Assembly: GCA_023258955.1 (NCBI GenBank)
Contig: JAHFRE010000004.1
Span: 1 to 64,000 of the forward strand
Length of the DNA stretch: 64,000 bases
Direction of reading: 5' to 3'
From: Sterolibacterium sp.
Lineage (GTDB): Bacteria; Pseudomonadota; Gammaproteobacteria; Burkholderiales; Rhodocyclaceae
The notes under the pieces were generated by a model. It ran no database searches. It was given only the letters and a program-made list of their open reading frames with translations, and was not told the DNA's origin. Of this stretch, positions 6,534 to 36,984 are shown one piece after another. Made by a program: the position numbers and the translations under genes. Every line of letters starts with the position of its first letter. Position 1 is the stretch's first letter.

Positions 6534-6707
6534 TCACTGCTCCTGTATCTGCGAACGTCCTACTTGGCGCGGCTCTACGGTAAATTGCCCACCGGCAGGC
6601 AGTCCGTTGCGGGTGATCCCGATAAATACCAAATCGACCTGATATTTTTCGAGGACTGCTTGAATCTCTGCTTCTGCCGCATCCTTCGCGAAGCTTTTCT
6701 GGTTCAT
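6534..6707 (-). CDS. Small prophage protein, 57 aa, unknown
   Basis: Begins at the ATG at 6707, which shares its A with the TGA stop of the upstream gene (TGATG), so translation is coupled; an ATG at 6722 is the alternative. The product is a short, mainly alpha-helical protein rich in Glu, Ala and Lys in its first half, with a beta-like second half. It lies in the late structural operon between two virion-type genes. No family recognised. Confidence 0.6.
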   Translation of the reverse strand: MNQKSFAKDAAEAEIQAVLEKYQVDLVFIGITRNGLPAGGQFTVEPRQVGRSQIQEQ

Positions 6708-7039
6708 CAGTTCCATACCCATGCGACGTTGTAGGCACCATAGGTGTCTGCCTGTTGGTCAGGCAGGCCACCATAGGCGGTCTTTGTACCGAACACTTGG
6801 ACGTCGCCGGGATAGCCATAGATGGTGAAGCCGGTCCCGGCCACGATGTTTCCGACGGTTACCCGAATGGGGTCGACGCGCATTTCATCAGCCGAGTGGT
6901 CGGTGCCATCGGCGGGCAGAACCCACGCATCAACCAGCGAACCGGCCGTGATGCCTGTCTGACCGATGACAGCGACGCTCGCCTCTTGAGAGCCTGGAAA
7001 ACTTCCGAAGTTGAGCGTCGCTGTGCCTTGGGCGCCCAT
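6707..7039 (-). CDS. Prophage structural protein, 110 aa, unknown
   Basis: Small, beta-rich, Gly/Thr/Val-rich protein with Trp near the C-terminus. It lies 3 bases downstream of the 97-aa gene and is stop/start-coupled to the 57-aa gene below it. Its place between capsid and tail genes suggests a head-tail or tail component (inference). No Shine-Dalgarno of note precedes the ATG, so it probably relies on re-initiation after the upstream stop. Family not recognised. Confidence 0.65.
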   Translation of the reverse strand: MGAQGTATLNFGSFPGSQEASVAVIGQTGITAGSLVDAWVLPADGTDHSADEMRVDPIRVTVGNIVAGTGFTIYGYPGDVQVFGTKTAYGGLPDQQADTYGAYNVAWVWN

Positions 7040-7042
7040 GGC

Positions 7043-7336
7043 TTAGGTGCTCTGCGCGGACGCAGCAGCGTGAGCGGTAGCAGCTGCAGCTGCAGTGGCG
7101 GCCGCCGCCGCAGCAACTTCAGCATCCACCGGCGCGCCAACGGTCTCAACGGTCGAATCCGCTGCAAGCTCCGATTCAACGAAGTAGCGGCTGTGGATAT
7201 TGCCCTCGGGATCGGCCCACTCGACGCAATACTGCACGTCGCCGGACTCCTGATCGACCGAGAAGGACTGCACCTTGCCAGAGAGCACCTGCACGACCTG
7301 ATGGACAATCGTGCCTTTGGGGAATTTTGAAGCCAT
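7043..7336 (-). CDS. Prophage protein, 97 aa, with Ala-rich tail
   Basis: ATG at 7336 is preceded by GAGGAG. The first 60 residues look like a compact beta domain (fold resembling small KOW/SH3-like proteins, weak impression only); the last 30 residues are almost pure Ala with Thr and His. Located in the late structural operon. Function unknown; a small virion or head-tail accessory protein is possible. Confidence 0.65.
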   Translation of the reverse strand: MASKFPKGTIVHQVVQVLSGKVQSFSVDQESGDVQYCVEWADPEGNIHSRYFVESELAADSTVETVGAPVDAEVAAAAAATAAAAATAHAAASAQST

Positions 7337-7349
7337 ACTTGCTTCTCCT

Positions 7350-7934
7350 CTACATGCTAGCGGTGTACGTGACGTTCAATGTGTCCCCATTGGAGACTGT
7401 CTTGCTGCCGCCCGTAAAGGCGCCGCAGGAATACAGGACGCCCGACGTGTTATCAATGGTCGTCACCGCGCCTGAGCCAAAGACCAGGAAGCAGCCGCCG
7501 ACCGTGCCACTCGAGGTGATCGCAAACGAGACAGCGGCGCTTGTGGCTTTGGAGCCTGCTGAGGCACTGGACCAACTCGGGGTCTTGCGCGGACTGGTAT
7601 AGGTTGGCGCATTGGTAGCACCGACTTCCAGCCACGTCGTCTTGCTGGCCATCGTGTCCGTTACCGTGCAACTTGAGGCGGAGCCGTTGGCCAGGCCCAT
7701 ATAGACGGCAGCGGTGTAGGCAGAGCCGGCGAGAAACGTGTCCAACGCCAGGTTCTTGCCGACGTTGGTGACGATGTTGTCGGCGGTGTCTTCCCACTTC
7801 ACCTGGCCGTCCGGGCCAACGCACTGGACGCTATAGACGCCGATGACGCCGGCCTTCTCGACAACACTGCTCTGCGAGGCAATAGCGCTGTCGGTCGCCG
7901 CGTTGCCGGCGGCGATTCCATTATGAGTTTGCAT
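7350..7934 (-). CDS. Prophage structural protein, 194 aa, unknown
   Basis: I chose the ATG at 7934 because AGGAGAA lies just upstream; the frame stays open for a further 69 codons upstream but that stretch is Arg/Pro-rich out-of-frame sequence of the next gene. The protein is Ser/Thr/Ala/Gly-rich and beta-type, including a stretch resembling tail proteins that carry Ig-like or jelly-roll folds. It lies 13 bases upstream of the 97-aa gene. Likely a virion protein; family not recognised. Confidence 0.7.
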   Translation of the reverse strand: MQTHNGIAAGNAATDSAIASQSSVVEKAGVIGVYSVQCVGPDGQVKWEDTADNIVTNVGKNLALDTFLAGSAYTAAVYMGLANGSASSCTVTDTMASKTTWLEVGATNAPTYTSPRKTPSWSSASAGSKATSAAVSFAITSSGTVGGCFLVFGSGAVTTIDNTSGVLYSCGAFTGGSKTVSNGDTLNVTYTASM

Positions 7935-27363: not shown

Positions 27364-27990
27364 TTACTGTGCCCATGTGGGCTTACCGGCCGGTGCCGAA
27401 CGCTGCTGGCCCGCGTTTGCGGGTGGGGAGGCAGCCGCTGGTGTCGCCGCTGCCGGTCCCCCTGTCGCGCGCGATGCCCCACCCATGAGGGCGGCGTAGT
27501 CCTTGTGGTCCGGTTCAACCGCGAGCTTCACGACATTGCGGTCTTCCCCCTTGGCATCCTTTTCAACATCGACGCGCGCGAGAAACTCGATGCCGTCGAG
27601 CTCGTTAAATCCCTGGATGCGCCGGGCAGCGGCAGCCTGCGGTGAATTGTCCTGGGGGAGGACGTTGCGGGCGCTATTTAGGATTGCCCGAATCATGCTG
27701 CGGCCCATCTGGCCCCAGGTCGGACCCTTGCGCGACTGCAGGCCAATGTTCGACCACATCTTGCGCTTGGCGTGGGGTCCTTCCAGCACGACAAACTCGC
27801 AGGCGAGATAGACGCTGCCGGTGTCAAAGCTCTCGGTCGCGTAGCCGCCAGTCCAGCCTTGGGCGACATCATCGTAGCCGCCGGGCTTGATCGTCATGCG
27901 CAGGCGCAAGAGCGTGCCCTTGGGGATGAGGTCGAAGGCGCCTTGCTGGGCCTCGGCGTCGTTGAAGTCCTGCCAGGTGTTCTGGTTCAT
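27364..27990 (-). CDS. Putative phage ssDNA-binding protein
   Basis: 208 residues from the ATG at 27990 (AAGGAG 6 bases upstream; an in-frame start at 28041 is weaker). The first 150 residues have the beta-rich pattern of OB-fold-like phage recombination/replication proteins, with the segment G-T-L-L-R-L-R-M-T and the Y-L-A-C-E-F-V-V-L stretch. The last 45 residues are Ala/Pro/Gly-rich and end with an aromatic-rich tip, as in SSB-like proteins. It follows the Sak4-like gene. Name by context; not proven. Confidence 0.6.
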   Translation of the reverse strand: MNQNTWQDFNDAEAQQGAFDLIPKGTLLRLRMTIKPGGYDDVAQGWTGGYATESFDTGSVYLACEFVVLEGPHAKRKMWSNIGLQSRKGPTWGQMGRSMIRAILNSARNVLPQDNSPQAAAARRIQGFNELDGIEFLARVDVEKDAKGEDRNVVKLAVEPDHKDYAALMGGASRATGGPAAATPAAASPPANAGQQRSAPAGKPTWAQ

Positions 27991-28013
27991 GTTGTGCTCC
28001 TTGAATGGGGTAA

Positions 28014-28820
28014 TCAGGGCTGCGGCAATTCGCCGAGGCATTTTTGGATGAGCTTGCCCAGGTGCGGCTCCTCAACGGCGTCGAGTCGCCCGCTCCGGTC
28101 CTTGCTTGGGTAGCCATAGGGGTTGTCCGCTCGGGTGACAAAGCCGCGGTAGGGGGTGCCGTCATCGGCTTTGAGGACAGCCAACGTCACGACTTCGTCG
28201 AGGACACCGGGCAACTCCAGTGCGGTCTTACTGCCCTCCAGTTGCAGGTGGTAGAAGCGCCGGTTGTAGTCGTCCGTCTTCTCTTCCAGGATGGCCACGT
28301 AGATGACGTGCTTGTCCCTCACATGCTGGAGGTGGGTGAGCGCGGTGATCATTTCCTGACCGAGCAACCCGTAGGCGCCCCGCGTGTCCGGCTTGCCGTT
28401 TTTCTCCGAGTACGCCTGTGGCTGAGCCTTGCACCATGAAAAACACAGGCGAGACAGCACGGTCAGCGAGTCGACAAAATAGAACGCGTACTTCGCCAGC
28501 TGCGCCGGATCGCCATACTTCTCGCAGACATGCCGATAGTGCGCGTCCGAAAAGGCCTGGTCGGCCGTCGCCGTCGGCAACGGTCCCGCGAGAAACACGA
28601 CCAGATCGCGAAACTCGTTCCAGGTTCTGGGGCGCACCGAGTCGCCGGGCCAATCCTTGACCGACAGGTCGCCAGCCTCAAGGTCAACAAACAAGGTGGA
28701 TTCGGCAGGCAGGGTCTTGAGCTGGGTGGTCTTCCCCACACCGGGGAAACCCACCAGCCCGACCTTGGCACTGTGCCGCTCCTTAAGCCGCTCTTCGGCT
28801 GAAATGATGGGCAGTGTCAT
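28014..28820 (-). CDS. Sak4-like phage ATPase (RecA-fold, AAA_24)
   Basis: 268 residues; the ATG at 28820 shares its A with the upstream stop (TGATG). Walker A G-F-P-G-V-G-K-T-T at about 23-31, Walker B F-V-D-S-L near 113. Short RecA-type proteins of this kind serve as single-strand annealing or recombinase proteins in phages. It sits next to the possible SSB and Cas4-like nuclease genes, a usual partnership. Confidence 0.85.
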   Translation of the reverse strand: MTLPIISAEERLKERHSAKVGLVGFPGVGKTTQLKTLPAESTLFVDLEAGDLSVKDWPGDSVRPRTWNEFRDLVVFLAGPLPTATADQAFSDAHYRHVCEKYGDPAQLAKYAFYFVDSLTVLSRLCFSWCKAQPQAYSEKNGKPDTRGAYGLLGQEMITALTHLQHVRDKHVIYVAILEEKTDDYNRRFYHLQLEGSKTALELPGVLDEVVTLAVLKADDGTPYRGFVTRADNPYGYPSKDRSGRLDAVEEPHLGKLIQKCLGELPQP

Positions 28821-29569
28821 CACGCAGCCTCCTGCAGCAGTTGGCCCACCTCTGGCCGCCAGAGGATCTGGTAGCCAGAATGTCCGTTGCGGGAATACGG
28901 TAGGGCTTCGCCCCAGGCACGGCCGGCCTCCGTCAGTTCCCACTCGTCACGGTCGTTGCGCTGCTGAAGACCCAGTGCCGCCAACCGCAGGTTGACCGCG
29001 CGTGCGCCAAGTCCCACTTGTTCGCCGAGTTTGGTCGGGTTGATCGCCGCCAGCGGATCGTTGCAGGCCGGCAGCGCGCGGCGCATGGTCTCCACGGAAA
29101 GTCCGGTGTTTTCGTGGATGCAGGTGAGCGTCGCCGCCATCGCGATGCCATGCTTGACGCCCGGCACCTTGGTCATCGCCTCACCGATCATCAGAATCGC
29201 GCTAACGCGATCCTGGGTTGGGGCCGGCAGCGCACGGGTGGGACCGGGGACCGCATAGGATCCGGTCTTGCGAATGGATGGCAGAACTTCATGAGTCACC
29301 CATCGTTTGAACCGCTTCGCCTCGGGTTTGCGGCTGCCGAGCACCAGGTTGTAGAGGCCGGACTCATTGACCACGGTCATGTCCTGCGGTCCACCAGGGG
29401 TGTGAATTGAACTCACACCCTTTTCATCGTCGTCTAAACGCTCCAGTGCCTTGCGGTCGAGGCTTAGCGTAGACAACACGTCAGCCGCAACAAACATGGC
29501 TTCACCGTTGCCACCCATGCAGACACGTACGTTGTGGGACTCAAAATTGAAGGCGACGATCTGGTTCAT
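28820..29569 (-). CDS. BRO-family antirepressor
   Basis: 249 residues. N-terminal BRO domain (about 1-110) with the typical F-V-A-A-D-V, L-D-D-D-E-K-G and E-x-G-L-Y-x-L-V-x-x-S-R-K-P-E-A-x-x-F-x-x-W-V-x-x-E-V-L-P motif, then a C-terminal helix-turn-helix/KilA-C-like part. Such proteins inactivate phage repressors or steer gene expression. Located early in the replication operon. Confidence 0.92.
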   Translation of the reverse strand: MNQIVAFNFESHNVRVCMGGNGEAMFVAADVLSTLSLDRKALERLDDDEKGVSSIHTPGGPQDMTVVNESGLYNLVLGSRKPEAKRFKRWVTHEVLPSIRKTGSYAVPGPTRALPAPTQDRVSAILMIGEAMTKVPGVKHGIAMAATLTCIHENTGLSVETMRRALPACNDPLAAINPTKLGEQVGLGARAVNLRLAALGLQQRNDRDEWELTEAGRAWGEALPYSRNGHSGYQILWRPEVGQLLQEAA

Positions 29570-29856
29570 TTCGTCACCTCCGCGGCGATGTCACCGATCC
29601 GGTCGGCGCCGAGATAGCGGCGCTGACGGGCATAGGCAAGTACATCCTCAAGCACCAATGCGCGGTGTGAGAGGCTGGAGCGCTCCGTGTTGACCGACTG
29701 CAGGCAGAATACGATCTCGTCGACTGTGGCCTCGAGCAATGGTTTGACGACAACATTGCCTTCCCGGTCCAGATAACGTATTTCCGCTGGCAGTTGCTCG
29801 CTGGAAAAGCTGACGCATGCGCGGCGGAGTTGCTCGATCAAGTCTGTTACTTTCAT
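29566..29856 (-). CDS. Small prophage protein, 96 aa
   Basis: ATG at 29856 with AGGAGGT 7 bases upstream, overlapping the preceding stop (ATGA). Helical N-terminus, acidic, with a hydrophobic centre; no signal or membrane segment. Unknown. Confidence 0.7.
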   Translation of the reverse strand: MKVTDLIEQLRRACVSFSSEQLPAEIRYLDREGNVVVKPLLEATVDEIVFCLQSVNTERSSLSHRALVLEDVLAYARQRRYLGADRIGDIAAEVTK

Positions 29857-30338
29857 TCCGATACCTCCTGGTTCATGGCCAGGCTGAACGACGCCTTGCC
29901 GGGCTTGGTGGTTCTGGCGGCGGCGAATTGCTCTTTCAGCGCCGGTGGCCAGTTGTTGAAGCGGGACTCGGAGACCGAGAGGTCGACGTCCATGTAGTCC
30001 TGGATGCGCTCGCCGGCGCCGACGATGCGCTCGGCGATTTCCGCCAAACGCTTCTGGTCCCAGGAGACGCGTTTCGGTAACTCGAAGGTCACCTTCAGCG
30101 GACCGTCGGTCAGATGCGATACGCCAAAGTCGCGACCTGACTCGACGAGGGCCGAGCGCCCCAGCGTGCCGTAGCGACTGTCCAAAGCAGCGTTGAGGCG
30201 CTCGCGGGACTGCTTGACCCAAGCAGCCAGATCAGCCAACGCGACGTCGAGTTCCTGCAGGCGCTGGTGGGGCAAGGCGACAATTTGCGCGACGGACAGG
30301 TCGGGCAGGTCGGCAGGGGATATCATGAGATCGTTCAT
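29853..30338 (-). CDS. Prophage protein, 161 aa, unknown
   Basis: ATG at 30338 with AAGGGG upstream. Mostly helical in the first half with a Leu/Ala-rich coiled-coil-like region (about 20-55), then an alpha/beta half. It resembles small Gam-like or replication-accessory phage proteins in composition only; I cannot name a family. Co-transcribed with the BRO gene. Confidence 0.65.
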   Translation of the reverse strand: MNDLMISPADLPDLSVAQIVALPHQRLQELDVALADLAAWVKQSRERLNAALDSRYGTLGRSALVESGRDFGVSHLTDGPLKVTFELPKRVSWDQKRLAEIAERIVGAGERIQDYMDVDLSVSESRFNNWPPALKEQFAAARTTKPGKASFSLAMNQEVSE

Positions 30339-30347
30339 GGCCGCCCC

Positions 30348-30617
30348 TTACGCGTAGGCACGAGCGGAGGTAGAGTGGCGGGATACGCGCCGCTCAAACG
30401 CCTCGATCTCGGCAATGGGATAGATGACACGGGCCCCGAGTTTCAGGAATGGGCAGCCGAGTTGTTCCTGCCGCCAGCGGCGCACGGTGCGCACGCTCAT
30501 GCCCCAGCGGCTGGCCAGCTCGTATTCGTCGAGCGCGAGTTTTTCTGCGACGTCGCGACGACGCGAAGCGCTGCCTCGGTCGCGGCTATCTTGAAGAGAA
30601 TGGGATTGCTTTTGCAT
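30348..30617 (-). CDS. Helix-turn-helix protein, MerR/AlpA-like, first gene of early operon
   Basis: 89 residues. ATG at 30617 with AAGGAG upstream. Winged-helix core: E-L-A-S-R-W-G-M-S-V-R-T-V-R-R-W-R near residue 34, then L-G-A-R-V-I-Y-P-I-A-E-I-E-A-F-E, the excisionase/AlpA pattern. As the first gene of the leftward replication operon it may control this operon or act as excisionase. Its RBS lies in a hairpin loop. Confidence 0.85.
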   Translation of the reverse strand: MQKQSHSLQDSRDRGSASRRRDVAEKLALDEYELASRWGMSVRTVRRWRQEQLGCPFLKLGARVIYPIAEIEAFERRVSRHSTSARAYA

Positions 30618-30619
30618 TT

Positions 30620-30650
30620 GCGGTTGCTCCTTTTAGAAAGATGCAACCGC
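30620..30650 (-). promoter_or_regulatory. Stem-loop masking the ribosome binding site of the early operon
   Basis: Perfect 8-bp inverted repeat GCGGTTGC/GCAACCGC with a 15-base loop that holds AAGGAG; the ATG of the first early gene lies 2 bases below the stem. The RNA hairpin could limit translation of that gene. Confidence 0.55.
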
Positions 30651-30666
30651 GATACTCCGGATCCTT

Positions 30667-30708
30667 TAGCCTACGTTTGACCCATGCAATAGCCTATGGA
30701 TTAGCCTA
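30667..30708. promoter_or_regulatory. Three TAGCCTA repeats (candidate operator) ahead of the early operon
   Basis: TAGCCTA occurs at 30667-30673, 30690-30696 and 30702-30708, in the 95 bases between the end of the 313-aa gene and the first replication gene. Such a cluster is typical of a repressor binding region; the related TTTAGGC motifs in the XRE promoter hint that the same protein might act at both (inference). Confidence 0.5.
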
Positions 30709-30712
30709 TGTG

Positions 30713-31654
30713 CTATTGGCGACGCAGGCGATAATTGCCGCGGGGTAGAAGCCTGTCGATGCACAGCTCGCGTTTCTCCCTGCCACCCATCGCCTTGTCG
30801 AGCGTCGACAAGGAAGAACCCGACTGCGCCATCACGTCTTCCGTCCAACGCAACGGCGCGCCATCACGCGCCTTCCAGAAGATGGAGATGATCTTCTTCT
30901 GGTACCCTTTGAAAGTCACCGGCTGTGCAAGGTGCCGGAGCATGAGACGACCACTCGCCTCATCGAACCACTCGGGACCAAAATCGCCTGCATCCGCCGG
31001 CATGCCGCTCAAAATTCGCCCCAGCGCGTCGAGGTTGAACAACTCCTGGCCGTCGTGAACGTAAAGGAGATCGTCAATCGCTCGCAGTTCGCGCCGTAGC
31101 GGAAGCGTGATTTCCGGCGCGACAGGGGTCAGCACGATGCCACCATCACCCAACAGGGGATCGGCAAGCTTTGCCACAATGACTCCGTCCGGCGCCGCCT
31201 GCAACGCCCGCCCATAGAAGATCGACACCGAGACCTGCGTGGTGCCAATGCGCAAGGCACCGAGGTACCACAGGTGCTCTGACACCAAGCAACGCCGCTG
31301 CGTGGTGGCGGTAGGCCTGATTTTGAGCAAAGCGGTCACGTGATCGAGGACTGCGTCCAGATGTATCCGGTAGATCGCGATCTCATCCAGAGGGCGTGTC
31401 ACGATCCGGCCATGCTGCTGTGGACTACGGTACGTGTAGGTCTTGGCATCGGCGTCAGCCTCCACTTCGACTTCCTCTTCTGAGTCGAGGAAGGGCACCA
31501 TGACATGCGTCAGATGCCCGTCAGGCACCAGCCAATGGTGATGGTCTTGTATGGCGTCGCTGGTGCCGACATCCATGCCAAGGATGGGGTCCAACACCGT
31601 CGGTAGGCGTTCCAGAAGGAACAGGAATCGACGCAACATGATCGTTGGTGCCAT
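30713..31654 (-). CDS. Unknown protein, last gene of the XRE/ImmA operon, 313 aa
   Basis: ATG at 31654 overlaps the previous stop (TGATG). An acidic stretch near residues 60-68 follows a hydrophobic N-terminal segment; the middle is alpha/beta. The last 80 residues look like a winged helix (about 245-310) ending in G-N-Y-R-L. I cannot assign a family. It is always coupled to the 489-aa protein here, so the two probably act together. Stop codon is next to the TAGCCTA cluster. Confidence 0.8.
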   Translation of the reverse strand: MAPTIMLRRFLFLLERLPTVLDPILGMDVGTSDAIQDHHHWLVPDGHLTHVMVPFLDSEEEVEVEADADAKTYTYRSPQQHGRIVTRPLDEIAIYRIHLDAVLDHVTALLKIRPTATTQRRCLVSEHLWYLGALRIGTTQVSVSIFYGRALQAAPDGVIVAKLADPLLGDGGIVLTPVAPEITLPLRRELRAIDDLLYVHDGQELFNLDALGRILSGMPADAGDFGPEWFDEASGRLMLRHLAQPVTFKGYQKKIISIFWKARDGAPLRWTEDVMAQSGSSLSTLDKAMGGREKRELCIDRLLPRGNYRLRRQ

Positions 31655-33123
31655 CAGAACTCCTGGAGAATGCCAAGCCGGACGAGCTGCGCCATCACCA
31701 GCTTGCGGTCGTCCTCGGTCTTGGTCCTGTCGTTCAAGCCATGCGGCACGGTGATCTGCACCACAATGTTGTGTGCCTTGCGGTTTGGCTGCCGGGCAAC
31801 GCGGATGGATAGGGTCACCTGCACCACGTTGAATGGCGTCAGGTCCTTCATCTTGAAGGTGGTGCGAGCGACTGCATAGATATTGCGATCTTCAAACTTG
31901 TCGCGCTGCACGGCCAGGTAATTGGTGATGCGCCGTTCCGTTGTCCTTCCATTGCGACCGCCGTTAGTGAAGCGGCGATTCTCGGCGTCAGCGATCTTGA
32001 GGTGAATGATGTCAATGCGCTCGACTTGGTCAAGCTTGTCTACTGTCAGGCGCTTGAGCATCGCCTCGCTAGCAAAGGCGCTGAGGGAAAATTCGCGGAT
32101 GGGCAAGTTGGTGATGTCGCCGCCTTCGGCTAGCACTGTTTCACGAAACATCTTGGCAAGATCGCGTCGCACTTCGCGGTCGTCGCTGAATACGCTCAGC
32201 GCCCCGGATGTGGGCTCGAAGGAAAAGCGAATCGAGAGGGCTGCCAGGTCATCATGCGCCACGACTTCACCGTCCTCAACCTTACGGTAATGCGCTTCCG
32301 AGCCATTGAAGGTCACTGTGATGGTGTGCAAGAGAACATTGGCCTCGCCGTCCTCGTCTTCGGCATCCCCGTGACGCCTGGCGTGGCTCAAGTCCCGACG
32401 CGTGAAGTGCTCGACAATGACCGCATCGGCTGGCGCCTGCGGATAGAGGGCCAGAACTTGCTGCGTCAGGGTTTGCTTGGCTTTGGCGTCGACAATAGGT
32501 GTCGCGCCCTTCGGCCCCTGGTAGTGGCTGGAGTAGGCTTCGCTCTTCCACTGGCGGTTCATCACTTGCACACGTTCAGCATTGTCGAAACGGGTATTTC
32601 GGTCTCGATCGGCTTCGGAATACTCCTGTTCCAGAAAGAGGTACAGCGCACGGCCGTAAGAATCATCATGGCGCGCGAGGACCGGCGCGTCGTTGGCATC
32701 GTTGGCATCGAGGAGCGAGAGAACGGCCTGCTTGCCGTACTCGTCGTCCAGGAGCACGATGCGCTCTGCGGCGTGCTCGAGCCGGCTGCGCGTATTGGAC
32801 GCGGTGGCGGCCACCAGGTTGAAGAGGGCTTTTCTCGCTGCCGGCGGCAACGCGCCCTTGGCCTTGTCTATCGGGAGGGCAAACTCCGCTGGAAGCGTGA
32901 CGCCCTCGTTATTCAGGAGACGTCTCACCAGCGCAACCGATTTTGCCTTACGCATGAGTTGGACAAAGTTCTCCATGTCGGACAGGATGGCTGGGCCGCC
33001 ATCACCGTCTGACTTGGCCGCGCTGGTGCCCATTGCGGTTGGCTTTGGGGCGGTGACTCCGGGCGCCGTACCACCGACGCTGTCGTCCGCTGCTTCTTGC
33101 TGTTGTTGTTTTGCCGACGCCAT
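31654..33123 (-). CDS. Unknown protein of the XRE/ImmA operon, 489 aa
   Basis: ATG at 33123 with AAGGG upstream. The first 45 residues are low-complexity (Gln/Ala/Gly). The middle is helical; the last 200 residues are beta-strand-rich with many Arg and Lys residues, suggesting nucleic-acid or protein binding. No catalytic motif is visible by eye. Coupled to the 313-aa gene downstream; 113 bases separate it from the ImmA/IrrE gene upstream. Family unknown. Confidence 0.8.
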   Translation of the reverse strand: MASAKQQQQEAADDSVGGTAPGVTAPKPTAMGTSAAKSDGDGGPAILSDMENFVQLMRKAKSVALVRRLLNNEGVTLPAEFALPIDKAKGALPPAARKALFNLVAATASNTRSRLEHAAERIVLLDDEYGKQAVLSLLDANDANDAPVLARHDDSYGRALYLFLEQEYSEADRDRNTRFDNAERVQVMNRQWKSEAYSSHYQGPKGATPIVDAKAKQTLTQQVLALYPQAPADAVIVEHFTRRDLSHARRHGDAEDEDGEANVLLHTITVTFNGSEAHYRKVEDGEVVAHDDLAALSIRFSFEPTSGALSVFSDDREVRRDLAKMFRETVLAEGGDITNLPIREFSLSAFASEAMLKRLTVDKLDQVERIDIIHLKIADAENRRFTNGGRNGRTTERRITNYLAVQRDKFEDRNIYAVARTTFKMKDLTPFNVVQVTLSIRVARQPNRKAHNIVVQITVPHGLNDRTKTEDDRKLVMAQLVRLGILQEF

Positions 33124-33236
33124 GTCGTCCCTTCCATATATCTTGCGCGTTTAGCGAACGCGCAACGCTTCGGGCCTTAAATCGCCGGCTCGTGGCCGGC
33201 GCCAGAATTGCCGGGGCCCGACCCGGCATTCCAAAA

Positions 33237-34070
33237 TCAGTTGGCGGGATCGCCCCCAAGTAACCCGTAACGCTGCATGCGCACGCGAATAAAACGGCCA
33301 TGCACACCGAAACACACGCCAATCGCCTTTTGCAGATACTCCATATCCGCCAATCCGAGTTTGCCTGCTGCCCGCAGCGTCGGCTGGCCAGCGAGTGCCC
33401 CGCTCGCGAGCCCTGCGTATTCAAGATTCACATCGTAGATTGGCGCAAGTTCAGTGATCGCATGCACTAGCCGATCGCGCGGCACAAGCAGCGCGCCCAT
33501 GAATTCATTGGCCCTGAGTTCGGCGAAGCGAAGCGCATTCTGTCGCCCGCGATTCATTGTCACCGATAGGAAATCCTGAGCTGCATCGGATCCGAGATGC
33601 GCGACATCGCGGGTAATACTACGGTAAGCACGTGCGCGCCCTGCGGGCACATCAAAGAGTCCGGGGCCCGCTGCGGCCGCATGGATCCAACCAGGGGCAT
33701 CGAACACCGCATGGCCGAGTTCATGGCCAAACGTGCTCAAGACCAGCTCTTCCGTGATATCGCCACCCACCGGTGAAACAGAAACTGCCGCATGGTCCAC
33801 GCCTGCACCCGCGTCGAACTCGCAGATGCCTAGTACTGGCAACCCATCCTCGTCAGTGACAGGATGTTCAGTGTCTACCCAGAGGTCGTACTTGAGGTTA
33901 TTGACCTGCAGTCGAGTGATACCGCGAAGAACATCCATTGGCATCGCATCGGCGTCGGCATGCAAGAGTTGGCTGCGCGCCTGTTGCGCAACCACTTCAA
34001 CTTCAGAATGTTTGAGAAAGCTCGGCTGTAGGCTGTTCCCAGCCCGATAGCCGAGCGTAAGCTCGGTCAT
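33237..34070 (-). CDS. ImmA/IrrE-family metallo-endopeptidase
   Basis: 277 residues. The zinc site G-H-E-L-G-H lies near residues 114-119 and the third ligand region A-E-L-R-A-N-E-F near 184. ImmA/IrrE proteases cleave XRE-type repressors after a stress or signal, relieving repression. It starts 2 bases after the XRE gene, the classic arrangement of a repressor and its own protease. Confidence 0.9.
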   Translation of the reverse strand: MTELTLGYRAGNSLQPSFLKHSEVEVVAQQARSQLLHADADAMPMDVLRGITRLQVNNLKYDLWVDTEHPVTDEDGLPVLGICEFDAGAGVDHAAVSVSPVGGDITEELVLSTFGHELGHAVFDAPGWIHAAAAGPGLFDVPAGRARAYRSITRDVAHLGSDAAQDFLSVTMNRGRQNALRFAELRANEFMGALLVPRDRLVHAITELAPIYDVNLEYAGLASGALAGQPTLRAAGKLGLADMEYLQKAIGVCFGVHGRFIRVRMQRYGLLGGDPAN

Positions 34071-34072
34071 GG

Positions 34073-34351
34073 TCAGGCCTTGGTTGAGGGTCGCTTGCGA
34101 TAGGCGCGCACGACCGCGCCCACATTCTGCTGCATGTCGGGTGGCAGCCTGCTCGCCTCGACGAACGCTTCATCTGCGTCGAGTCCGAGTAGTTCAGCAG
34201 CCTTTGTAATCAGCGCATCCTTTGGCGCCTTCTCCATCTCGCGTTCGATACGCGACCAATAGGCGGGGGAAATGTCGAGTTGGCGGGCGAAGTCGTTCAG
34301 CGCAATATTGGCTGCCTCTCGCTTCCCCCGAATGTATGCGCCGAAACCCAT
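34073..34351 (-). CDS. XRE-family repressor, first gene of operon
   Basis: 92 residues from the ATG at 34351 (an in-frame TTG lies at 34369). Helix-turn-helix near residues 20-55 with L-N-D-F-A-R-Q-L-D-I-S-P-A-Y-W-S-R-I-E. It probably represses its own promoter and is inactivated by the ImmA/IrrE protease encoded next to it. Could be the prophage immunity repressor, as no other CI-type gene is visible in the window. Confidence 0.88.
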   Translation of the reverse strand: MGFGAYIRGKREAANIALNDFARQLDISPAYWSRIEREMEKAPKDALITKAAELLGLDADEAFVEASRLPPDMQQNVGAVVRAYRKRPSTKA

Positions 34352-34386
34352 AGTGCTGTCGTCGCCCAACTTGATTGATGTCGATC

Positions 34387-34422
34387 AGTTTAGGCCATTT
34401 TAGGCGCCGCGTCAACTAAACG
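34387..34422 (-). promoter_or_regulatory. Promoter and operator of the XRE operon
   Basis: On the minus strand TTGACG (34415-34410) and TAAACT (34392-34387) are 17 bases apart. GTTTAG and TTTTAG motifs (34388-34403) and an inverted CTAAACG (34416-34422) overlap or flank the boxes, as expected for autorepression. Confidence 0.65.
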
Positions 34423-34500
34423 CGCAATTACCCGTTTTACTCGCCTTGGCCTTCCTGTTCAGACCATTGCACCTAGCATCTGTGGGGTTCGCACAACTTC

Positions 34501-34701
34501 ATGGACACCACAATGGCCGCTGAACATACTCTCCCCCAATCTCTGCCACCGCGCGAGCGTGCCAAGGAAGTGGCCTGCATTATTGCCACCGCCATCGCGC
34601 GCAGCTATTCAGCCGTGCCCGCCGAGAGCGAAGTTCCACTTGGCTTCTCCCCAGGGAAGAGCGTTCATGACAACTCCTCTTTACCTGGAGTTGAGCAATG
34701 A
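34501..34701 (+). CDS. Small protein of the recombinase cassette, 66 aa
   Basis: ATG at 34501 or 34513. Its stop overlaps the DUF2924 ATG (ATGA). Helical, without known domains. Small ORFs like this stand ahead of DUF2924 and a large serine recombinase in many proteobacterial elements. Function unknown. Confidence 0.65.
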   Translation: MDTTMAAEHTLPQSLPPRERAKEVACIIATAIARSYSAVPAESEVPLGFSPGKSVHDNSSLPGVEQ

Positions 34702-35150
34702 ACACGATACCCCAACCGCAATCACTGGCCACCCGCGTCGCGGCGCTCTCGTCCCTTTCGATGAAGGAACTGTGGGTGCTGTGGGACAGGTTCTTCCCTC
34801 GCCGCCCCAGCCATCACAACCGCAACTATATTGAGGGCCGCGTCGCCTACAAACTGCAGGAGGACGCGCTCGGCGGAATCGACCCGCGGGTGCGTAAGCA
34901 GCTGATCAAGATCGGCGAGGATCAATCGAAGATCCCCGGCCGCAATGCAAGCGAGATACGCATCGTTCCAGGAACCGTCATGGTCCGCGAGTACAACAAC
35001 CGCGAGCACCGCGTGACTGCGCTGGCTGATGGCCTGTTTGAGATTGAGGGCAAGACCTTCAAGAGCCTATCGGCTGCTGCTCGAAGCATCGTCGGCTGCC
35101 AAGTTTCGGGACCGGTGTTCTTCGGCTTGAAGCAGAGCGTGCGCAAATGA
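34698..35150 (+). CDS. DUF2924 domain protein
   Basis: 150 residues. The N-terminal part L-W-x-x-F-F, then R-N-Y-I-E-G-R-V-A-Y-K-L-Q and the C-terminal G-K-T-F-K-S-L-S-A-A-A-R-x-I-V-G match DUF2924, a small DNA-binding-like domain nearly always next to large serine recombinases. Its stop overlaps the recombinase ATG (ATGA), so the two are coupled. Likely a recombination accessory or directionality factor (inference). Confidence 0.88.
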   Translation: MNTIPQPQSLATRVAALSSLSMKELWVLWDRFFPRRPSHHNRNYIEGRVAYKLQEDALGGIDPRVRKQLIKIGEDQSKIPGRNASEIRIVPGTVMVREYNNREHRVTALADGLFEIEGKTFKSLSAAARSIVGCQVSGPVFFGLKQSVRK

Positions 35151-36511
35151 GTGGCCCGATCACGCCTAAGCGCTGCGCCGTCTACACCCGTGTATCCACC
35201 GATGAGCGCCTTGACCAGAGCTTCAATTCCATCGACGCGCAGAGGGAAGCTGGACAGGCATTCGTCGCCAGCCAACGCGCCGAGGGCTGGGTACTGGTTC
35301 CTGACGCTTACGACGACGGCGGCTTCTCCGGCGGCAATATCGAGCGCCCTGCCCTAAAACGCCTGCTCGCTGATATTCAGGCCGGCAAGGTCGACGTGAT
35401 TGTCGTCTACAAGATCGATCGCCTCACGCGCAGCCTCAGTGACTTCGCCAAGATGGTCGACGTCTTCGACCAGCACGGCGTCAGCTTCAGCGCCGTCACC
35501 CAGCAGATCAACTCCGCCACATCCATGGGCAGGCTGATGCTGAACGTCCTGCTCTCCTTTGCCCAGTTCGAGCGTGAGGTCACTGGCGAGCGGATCCGCG
35601 ACAAGATTTCGGCGTCCAAGAAGAAGGGCATGTGGATGGGCGGTTTTCCGCCGCTGGGCTATCACGTCAAGGATCATCTGCTGATCATCAACGAGGCTGA
35701 GGCGGTTACCGTGCAGCGCATCTTCCAACGCTTCGTCGAATGCAGATCTAGCACCGCTGTCAGCCGGGAGCTGGCATTGGATGGCGTAACCACCAAGGCG
35801 TGGACAACGCTGGGTGGGAACGTACGGGCGGGTGCCCCCATGAACAAACAGTACCTTTACAAGGTGCTGCGCAATCCCGTGTACGTTGGTGAGATCTGCC
35901 ACAAGGGTGCCGTCCATGCGGGCCAGCACGAACCGATCATTTCCCGAAAACTATGGGATCAGGTTCAGGCCATTCTGGCCGAGGACGCCAAGGCGCGCAT
36001 GGGCGCCACGCAGACGTCTCGCAAAACTGACGCCCTGCTCCGCGGTCTGCTGTATGGCGCCGGCGGCGAGAAGTACTACGTCACCTTCTCCCAGAAGCCC
36101 TCCGGGAAGCGATACCGGTATTACGTTCCGCAGACAGACCGGAAGTTTGGCTACCGCACCAGCGCTACCGGCGCAATTCCCGCCGACCAGATCGAGGAAG
36201 TTGTTGTGAATATGGTCATTGACGCCCTGCAATCGCCTGAGTCGGTCCAGACCGTATGGAACCACGTGCGGTCGGAATACACTGGGATCGACGAGCCGAC
36301 CGTTGTACTCGCCATGCGCCGGCTGGCTGACATCTGGAAGCAACTATTCCCAGTAGAGCAGGTCCGAATTATCAATTTGCTAATCGAGCGAGTCACCCTA
36401 CTCTCCGACGGCATCGACATCGCCTGGCGCGACGTCGGCTGGAAGGAATTGGCCGGCGAACTGGCGCCCGAGTCCATCGGCGGCGAGATGCTGGACTTGG
36501 AGGCAGCGTGA
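35147..36511 (+). CDS. Large serine recombinase (prophage integrase)
   Basis: 454 residues. Resolvase domain (about 8-160) with the nucleophile Ser17 in Y-T-R-V-S-T-D-E and D-R-L-T-R-S near 87; recombinase domain (about 165-290) with G-x-x-P-x-G-Y; a C-terminal helical part. Large serine recombinases integrate and excise phage genomes without host factors. As the last prophage-type gene at the right end it is probably the integrase. No zinc-ribbon cysteines are seen, unlike some members. Confidence 0.93.
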   Translation: MSGPITPKRCAVYTRVSTDERLDQSFNSIDAQREAGQAFVASQRAEGWVLVPDAYDDGGFSGGNIERPALKRLLADIQAGKVDVIVVYKIDRLTRSLSDFAKMVDVFDQHGVSFSAVTQQINSATSMGRLMLNVLLSFAQFEREVTGERIRDKISASKKKGMWMGGFPPLGYHVKDHLLIINEAEAVTVQRIFQRFVECRSSTAVSRELALDGVTTKAWTTLGGNVRAGAPMNKQYLYKVLRNPVYVGEICHKGAVHAGQHEPIISRKLWDQVQAILAEDAKARMGATQTSRKTDALLRGLLYGAGGEKYYVTFSQKPSGKRYRYYVPQTDRKFGYRTSATGAIPADQIEEVVVNMVIDALQSPESVQTVWNHVRSEYTGIDEPTVVLAMRRLADIWKQLFPVEQVRIINLLIERVTLLSDGIDIAWRDVGWKELAGELAPESIGGEMLDLEAA

Positions 36512-36984
36512 ATCGGTCGAGCAAAAAGTTGGTTCCTAACGGCCAGCCCCATGATCGCCGCCACCCGCTGGATAATGGTGGTGCGAAAATCACGACCTTC
36601 GTTCCGCTGCAGTTCAAGAAGCGTGGCGTCAAGAAGGTCCTCGTCGCACCAGCGGGCGTGAGCGAACCGGTGGCGTATTGTGCGGCGCCGCCCATGGCAC
36701 CGCAGCACGACTCCGTGCTGCTCCGTGCCCTCGGCCGAGCGTACTACTGGCAGCAGTTGCTGGACAGCGGCACGGTGGCCGACACGGCAGAGATTGCCGA
36801 GCGCGAGGGCATCATCAGGAGCACGGTGTCCCAGGTGCTGCGACTGGCCCTGCTATCGCCTGATGTTGCTGAAGCGGCGGTTGCTGGGACACTGTCGGCG
36901 ACAGTGTCGCTGGAAAGATTACTATGGGCGCCGCTGCCGCGGGAGTGGAAGGAACAGAGGGCATACTTGCAAACGATTCAGTAA
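36508..36984 (+). CDS. Small protein downstream of the recombinase, 158 aa
   Basis: GTG at 36508 overlaps the recombinase stop (GTGA). Basic N-terminus, then a likely helix-turn-helix in the C-terminal half (A-E-I-A-E-R-E-G-I-I-R-S-T-V-S-Q-V-L-R). Proteins of this type follow DUF2924-recombinase pairs in other genomes. It converges on the IHF-like gene with a 12-base gap; the prophage border is probably near here. Confidence 0.75.
   Translation: MNRSSKKLVPNGQPHDRRHPLDNGGAKITTFVPLQFKKRGVKKVLVAPAGVSEPVAYCAAPPMAPQHDSVLLRALGRAYYWQQLLDSGTVADTAEIAEREGIIRSTVSQVLRLALLSPDVAEAAVAGTLSATVSLERLLWAPLPREWKEQRAYLQTIQ

Follow-up and report, generated by a model that had tools for sequence, protein, structure and literature searches.

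Gene Organization of the Locus

The present study concerns four adjacent genes, designated A to D, in a 64,000-nucleotide (nt) stretch of DNA from Sterolibacterium sp. (GCA_023258955.1, contig JAHFRE010000004.1, positions 1 to 64,000; hereafter referred to as the window). The presence of four minus-strand genes in the region 30713–34422 was confirmed: A encodes an XRE-type repressor, B a protein with an HELGH motif, and C and D proteins of 489 and 313 amino acids (aa), respectively. The four genes belong to a prophage with a serine recombinase, the excisionase/early operon of which they immediately precede, and they probably constitute the induction switch of this prophage, in which C and D would form a two-subunit activator of the excision and early genes. 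The features on which this proposal is based are as follows; loci from other genomes are designated by L numbers.

34419–34428, minus strand: operator-like half-site ATTGCGCGTT, directly upstream of the −35 element of A-B (5/5 tandem loci, at most 1 mismatch)
34387–34415, minus strand: promoter-like site of A-B, TTGACG-17-TAAACT (9/12 match)
34073–34351, minus strand: A, XRE repressor, 92 aa (PF13560, 4.1e-9; start aligned with L003, L109, and L110)
33237–34070, minus strand: B, a 277-aa metalloprotease of ImmA/IrrE (M78)-like character with the motif HELGH (HExxH; hhalign to M78 relatives)
33183–33201, minus strand: stem in the B-C gap that may represent a degenerate terminator (missing from the list of the terminator scan)
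33143–33165, no strand assigned: perfect dyad TTGCGCGTT-N5-AACGCGCAA (9+5+9) before C, with the same half-site as at the A promoter
31654–33123, minus strand: C, 489 aa, predicted helical N-terminal domain and double RdgC/CENP-N-like domain (AlphaFold2 model, folds, phrog_37634)
30713–31654, minus strand: D, 313 aa, predicted beta-rich N-terminal part and OmpR/PhoB-type winged helix (219–313)
30668–30710, minus strand: array of three direct repeats, CATAGGCT, CATAGGCT, and CGTAGGCT, spacing 12 and 23, the proposed C-D site
30652–30657, minus strand: weak −10-like GAGTAT, at a distance of 18 nt from where the last repeat starts (from the sequence)
30348–30617, minus strand: E, HTH_17 excisionase-like gene (phrog_66 excisionase, 1.4e-7)

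The initial annotation, which was made from the sequence alone, described a single leftward four-gene unit with a good promoter, operator-like repeats, a repressor, and a protease. A promoter-like site and operator-like sites lie at the positions given above. A single unit was borne out for the strand, the gap of 2 bases between A and B, and the overlap of the C stop codon with the D start codon; it did not hold between B and C, where the gap of 113 bases contains the stem and the perfect dyad, and, thus, A-B and C-D look like two units rather than one simple unit. Regarding the repressor, A matched PF13560 at 37 bits (cut-off 27); its open reading frame (ORF) call extends to a TTG at 34369 (34073–34369), and its relatives begin at the ATG of 34351. 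The protease assignment was sustained by the HExxH motif and not by PF06114, which B matched at 13.6 bits, under the cut-off of 22. Since HExxH was invariant in the alignment (4/4) and the B profile aligned with that of its relatives, three of which pass Pfam, at an hhalign E-value of 8.5e-8 over 37 columns, B is named M78-like and appears by sequence to belong with the M78 proteases of these relatives. PADLOC gave borderline family matches for A and B (capH, 2.4e-4; capP, 0.015).

Operator-Like Sites of the Repressor

The half-site at the A promoter was present in all of the loci with the tandem arrangement (the window, L003, L109, L110, and L111), the null mean being 0.36–0.52 matches per 4 kb. 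The dyad before C was found in three of these five (the window, L003, and L110), and L109 and L111 carry what looks by eye like a related form; T runs of 6–7 followed the corresponding B-C stem in L003, L109, and L111, also by eye. When as many as 3 mismatches were allowed, a pattern derived from the dyad had no other match in the 64 kb (expected number, 0.06), which demonstrates its uniqueness within the window, not how probable a dyad is. The recognition helix of A was identical in the four tandem loci aligned. From the sharing of this site between the A promoter and the region before C, we infer that A acts as the repressor of its own gene and of C-D. In loci in which A and C are divergent, near-consensus promoters were seen by eye to face C in several cases (e.g., TTGACA-17-TAGAAT in L027).

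Sequence and Predicted Structure of C and D

Neither C nor D of the window matched a family in Pfam, NCBIfam, or PADLOC. Searches of these databases and PHROGs for the identity of the two proteins yielded nothing useful except a match of C to phrog_37634 (1.8e-11), a family of unknown function. PADLOC also returned three single weak matches among 48 relatives of D, the relatives of C not being part of that scan. Sequence profiles compared with PDB chains gave nothing below an E-value of 0.07.

AlphaFold2 models had mean confidence scores (pLDDT) of 86.2 for C and 89.1 for D. Foldseek aligned C with RdgC and CENP-N folds at probabilities of 0.90–0.99, E-values of 2e-3 to 3e-3, and TM-scores of 0.18–0.24, and no PDB match in the fold search reached an E-value of 0.001. 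In the structure comparison, the best Z-score was 8.0 for CENP-N, and RdgC was aligned at 6.0 over 105 residues at 2.9 Å; C also weakly resembles CENP-N/Chl4 in fold. Viral proteins named RdgC or recombination-associated were matched structurally at E-values of 2.5e-4 and 9.5e-4. Given the low TM-scores and the absence of a PDB match at an E-value of 0.001, we treat the weak RdgC/CENP-N-like fold of the model as a lead. The RdgC profile was negative (no PF04381 match; hhalign E 0.76 with 10 RdgC sequences); C would share a fold with RdgC at most and not membership of its family. A similarity between RdgC, TBP, and Chl4/Iml3 has been published (PMC4080450).

The initial annotation had suggested that one of the two proteins ends in a possible winged helix, and such a fold is predicted for D. 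The C-terminal part of its model (219–313) was aligned with the DNA-binding domain of RstA at a Z-score of 7.1 (root-mean-square deviation 3.2, 86 residues aligned), and most of the rows listed were of the OmpR/PhoB/ToxR type, which suggests an OmpR/PhoB-type winged helix. The best Foldseek match of the OmpR/PhoB kind had an E-value of only 0.12 (probability 0.98), and Trans_reg_C was matched at 0.047 in one of 48 D members. The OmpR/PhoB winged-helix family binds tandem direct repeats. The N-terminal part of D has zinc-ribbon cysteines in many relatives, which are absent in the window. A Can2/Card1 nuclease assignment for D 2–218 was set aside (weak Z-score of 5.5, 145 residues aligned, deviation 5.0, catalytic residues not mapped).

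Pairing and Distribution of C and D

The C family was present in 21 of 200 genomes of relatives, 35/399 of the order, 16/369 of the class, and 34/398 of the phylum; these sets overlap, and each includes the genome of the window. By tblastn, no match was found for window C in plasmids or phages, for the C of L031 in phages, or for that of L146 in plasmids, and window C had no relative in a genome contig collection.

For the count of pairing, only the longest locus was kept for each C sequence, which reduced 80 loci to 64 distinct C or fused ORFs. D directly followed C in 52 of the 56 non-fused loci with room for it; the exceptions were L113, L120, L124, and L125, and L124 has a D-like ORF by eye. 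C and D were fused in six of the 64 ORFs. When 4 kb of flanking sequence was required on each side, 47 loci remained; a recombinase was located within 8 kb in 37, an excisionase or early gene within 9 kb in 35, and XRE and M78 genes in 29, with neither recombinase nor early genes in nine. The gene set is conserved, and the suggestion of the initial annotation that the protease and repressor free the expression of C and D is plausible.

The regulators accompanying C-D varied. Besides XRE and M78, we found an M78 protein with its own helix-turn-helix (HTH; by eye) and a PIN-like gene (L117, L120, and L149), LexA-S24 (L310), WYL (L299), and, for the fused type, HTH_17 and PIN. Several of the nine loci with neither recombinase nor early genes adjoin restriction-type genes by eye, and some resemble P4-like satellites in that C-D stands ahead of a primase and an AlpA-like gene. 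In L107 (4862–9543), C-D and an array precede an operon of Multi_ubiq, JAB-like, and ThiF genes, the JAB match being below the cut-off; we read C-D as the regulator of this multiubiquitin operon, which is of the defense type.

A variable gene slot was found between the M78 gene and the DUF2924 module (L153 ~6664–7538, set by offset from L101; L031 2457–3461; and L028 2224–3435), containing an OST-HTH/LOTUS protein and 404-aa and 477-aa proteins with no assigned function. The slot after the M78 gene is likely the real cargo site.

Several further observations were made on these loci. In L043, L044, L045, and L046, fused C-D proteins of ~690–760 aa follow a pair of HTH_17 and PIN genes and have the same orientation as the recombinase module; L104, L129, and L130 are longer stretches of three of these. 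In one single-contig genome, two 11.8-kb stretches ~67 kb apart (L101 and L102), with recombinase, XRE, M78, and C-D, are 100% identical and diverge shortly after D. From L153 to L163, the end carrying recombinase, XRE, M78, and C-D has 93–97% DNA identity across Thauera, Dechloromonas, Pseudoduganella, Cupriavidus, Hydrogenophaga, and others, which indicates recent spread over genera. In genome G335 (L080 and L112), both C matches in a six-frame search contain an in-frame TGA.

Direct Repeats Upstream of the Excisionase Gene

The array at 30668–30710, between D and the excisionase gene, was absent from the initial annotation and is the sole array of this kind in the window (at least 7/8, 16 spacings, both strands). 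Among 111 distinct excisionase upstream regions of loci with a long D, which include many close relatives and from which identical regions and those shorter than 200 bases were dropped, 25 scored at least 7/8 and 43 at least 6, and the corresponding counts in shuffled sequences were 0 and 11 of 2380. Outside the phage lineage, eight regions after D were scanned: six had no array, L123 was marginal with another spacing, and L107 had a clear one (TTCACAC, spacing 12 and 21; 0/60 shuffles) before the multiubiquitin operon. Arrays of at least 7/8 were found in none of four short-D and none of four fused C-D regions; L104 and L042, which are fused, each have one array-like stretch elsewhere than at the excisionase gene.

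The repeat sequences are lineage-specific (CATAGGCT, CATAAA, CCCGTACA, TGCCC[AG]C, TTCGCC, CTCCTACC, and others). Even the three C-D copies in the genome of the window (the window, L040, and L026) have three different arrays, those of L040 and L026 at 6/8.

Distance to the −10 Element and Sign of Control

Measured from the start of the last repeat, the best −10-like hexamer began at 16–20 nt in 23 of the 25 arrays, the exceptions being the window and L142; shuffles gave a mean of 5.1 and a largest value of 13, with 0/2000 reaching 23. TTGACA matches at the right distance were at background in the 25 arrays. A box and −10 with no −35 at the excisionase gene, an arrangement like that of SetCD, was thus found in 23/25 arrays and is weak in the window itself. 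In SXT/R391, the SetCD box is immediately upstream of, or overlaps, a poor −35 (PMC4344509). Since a fixed distance from array to −10 with no −35 resembles the class II activation of SetCD at Pxis, C-D is read as an activator, and this sign of control is the more probable one from the present analysis.

The most serious alternative, which we nevertheless regard as unlikely, is that C-D binds the array and represses the early operon as a second, Cro-like or maintenance repressor. It would produce the same binding data, and the last repeat ends only ~8–12 nt before the −10. The constant −10 distance in 23/25 arrays and −35 matches no higher than background, which correspond to class II activation as described for SetCD (PMC4344509), speak against it, as does the position of C-D beside damage-type repressors, which fits an output activator.

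Which Protein Accompanies the Array

L117 and L025 have an identical 28-residue stretch of the excisionase HTH, yet their arrays are CGCCCGTA and TTGCCCGC, the former of the CCCGTACA kind and the latter of the TGCCCGC kind, at 6/8. Their D winged helices differ (SQRMQNLFSGN in L117 vs. ADICKRHK in L025), and relatives show the same split. Correlations were calculated with clear arrays only, in 21 of 23 selected loci, two near-identical ones being dropped. The partial rank correlation of the array with the D winged helix given the excisionase was 0.46 (permutation p 0.0005), and that with the excisionase given D was 0.18 (p 0.039). Plain correlations were 0.63 for C, 0.53 for the D winged helix, 0.42 for the D N-terminal part, 0.35 for the excisionase, and 0.08 for the Sak4 control. 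Taken together, these values suggest that the array accompanies the C-D pair, with the winged helix as the natural candidate for the part that reads it.

These data also bear on the possibility that the array belongs to the excisionase, a recombination directionality factor, as for other winged-helix factors, with C-D doing something else. The array stays by the excisionase gene where D lies elsewhere (L128, L133, L134, and L303), and the residual partial correlation of 0.18 points the same way. We consider this improbable because the array changes under a constant excisionase helix and follows D, and because L107 has C-D and an array with no excisionase gene after it.

Proposed Mechanism and Remaining Alternatives

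The computed basis of the switch that we propose comprises the four genes themselves, the pairing of C with D and their fusion in some loci, the dyad with its half-site, and the array, for which the distance to a −10 and the co-variation with C and D were determined. From these results, we infer that A represses, that B cleaves it, and that C-D binds the array and activates. In the lysogen, C-D would be kept silent by A, bound at its own promoter and at the dyad before C. Single-stranded DNA or DNA damage is the probable trigger, in response to which B would become active and cleave A. C and D would be produced and act jointly as a DNA-binding complex, in which the winged helix of D may read the direct repeats ahead of the excisionase gene and C may clamp or bridge DNA. 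The complex would replace the missing −35 and thereby start the excisionase/early operon. The best reading of the loci together is that damage-type repressors (XRE and M78 here, LexA or WYL elsewhere) hold down C-D. The initial annotation had offered a lysogeny switch as its second choice, and this fits best.

Several observations weigh against this proposal. At the best offset, the −10 score averaged −2.16, which falls short of the 99th percentile of shuffles (−2.05), the −10 frequencies were entered by hand, and the 25 arrays represent about six lineages. GAGTAT in the window is a poor −10 and not the best-scoring hexamer there. A promoter scan of the gap between B and C found no promoter-like site, which concerns the transcription of C-D in the tandem layout, and perfect inverted repeats were present in only three of 15 divergent A-C gaps (L026, L028, and L106), that of L028 adjoining the −10 as computed by script. 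In the scan, 68/111 long-D regions scored below 6/8, and fused C-D lineages had no array at the excisionase gene. The correlation of the array was higher with C (0.63) than with the D winged helix (0.53), and a lower one (0.35) was seen with the excisionase; the loci are related, and the permutations ignore kinship. The TM-scores of C by query length did not exceed 0.24 for its fold matches.

A role of C-D in replication or recombination, as an RdgC-like modulator of RecA or an initiator on iterons, was also considered. The RdgC-like fold of C and the proximity of the repeats to early genes with Sak4, RuvC-like, and primase functions are in its favor. The hhalign comparison with RdgC (E 0.76) gave no profile match, the arrays keep a fixed distance from the −10, and the L107 pair serves a non-replication operon, which makes this about as improbable as assigning the array to the excisionase.

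The initial annotation preferred a candidate anti-phage system, and anti-phage or toxin cargo released by the protease is the least probable explanation: some relatives adjoin genes that read as restriction systems, and fused C-D proteins follow an HTH_17-PIN pair, but C-D is a near-constant neighbor of the excisionase and early genes in the lineage, several restriction-linked loci have C-D before an AlpA-like gene and a primase like cargo-carrying satellites, and PADLOC, run on the window and on 48 relatives of D, gave no convincing match, and none for C or D of the window. C-D as cargo was dropped when the variable slot was found elsewhere, between M78 and DUF2924, and a defense role for C-D is unlikely.

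Comparison with Known Systems

The logic of the proposed switch has precedents. In SetR-SetCD of SXT/R391, a damage-sensitive repressor controls two genes, the product complex of which activates xis and others (PMC4344509). The switch proposed here would work like SetR-SetCD, a system grouped with AcaCD and FlhCD, with unrelated proteins. In contrast to SetCD, C and D are larger, and D has no FlhC profile match: none was found for window D, FlhC was absent from the 25 families listed, out of 31, for 48 members of the D family, and hhalign with a profile of nine FlhC sequences, SetC and AcaC themselves not included, gave an E-value of 0.35. In contrast to SetR, the repressor is an XRE protein with an M78 protease and, elsewhere, LexA or WYL.

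ICEBs1 carries an ImmR-ImmA switch, and pneumococcal prophages reportedly have an XRE repressor followed by an M78 protease of this type. The same order is described for ImmR-ImmA in the mobile element TnSmu1, and published cases show M78-XRE regulators responding to nucleic acids or DNA damage (PMC12637031). The pair in the window differs from ImmR-ImmA in that it appears to govern an extra two-protein tier, and B is distant from the Pfam model. LexA responds to DNA damage, and a response to damage or to nucleic acids is also reported for WYL regulators.

CapH-CapP, CapW, and CapK-CapS are regulators located ahead of immune operons, including Bub, and CapK-CapS is DNA damage-responsive (PMC13373217). 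L107 places C-D in such a position. Neither the GHKL kinase domain of CapK nor the STAS domain of CapS, a STAS-winged HTH protein, was among the 11 families of 46 C members or the 25 families listed, out of 31, for 48 members of the D family. The other likeness, to RdgC and CENP-N/CENP-L, is a weak resemblance of fold in C, with no RdgC profile match and low TM-scores.

A literature search that excluded subscription papers and most preprints yielded no description of C-D. SetR-SetCD and ImmR-ImmA already exemplify the logic of the switch; what appears to be new is the pair of activator proteins, with its box and its reuse. More tentatively, and with rather less confidence than in the switch of the window, C-D may represent an undescribed class of two-subunit activators in many Proteobacteria, with an RdgC/CENP-N-like clamp and a PhoB-like winged helix on tandem repeats, interchangeable DNA-damage sensors (XRE and M78, LexA, or WYL) and outputs (prophage excision/early genes or a multiubiquitin defense operon), and boxes the divergence of which prevents cross-talk between co-resident elements. 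If the proposal is correct, two unnamed protein families gain a function, and prophage induction gains an extra tier, in which the repressor holds down an activator of the lytic genes and not the lytic genes themselves. An RdgC/kinetochore-type fold would also have a place in bacterial transcription control. The joining of one output module to different DNA-damage sensors, and its reuse for an immune operon, becomes testable.

Flanking Genes and Minor Features

The remaining features of the region are as follows.

34501–36984, plus strand: divergent integration module comprising a small ORF, DUF2924, a serine recombinase, and a ParB-HTH-like gene
30620–30650, minus strand: hairpin ahead of the excisionase gene, the ribosome-binding site being in the hairpin loop (8-bp perfect stem)
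27364–30338, minus strand: early genes, namely phrog_2480, Ant antirepressor, Sak4 annealing protein, and phrog_2300

Primase and RuvC-like resolvase genes are also located downstream, after the excisionase-type gene, the antirepressor, and Sak4. Beyond the recombinase are an HU/IHF-type gene and a PAS-HD gene, which are read here as host chromosome, and, therefore, the region represents one end of the prophage. The hairpin before the excisionase gene, with a stem of 8–11 bp and a loop of 14–15 nt containing the ribosome-binding site, was found in the window, L003, L004, L049, and L111; between the window and these relatives, the stem sequence varies and pairing is kept.

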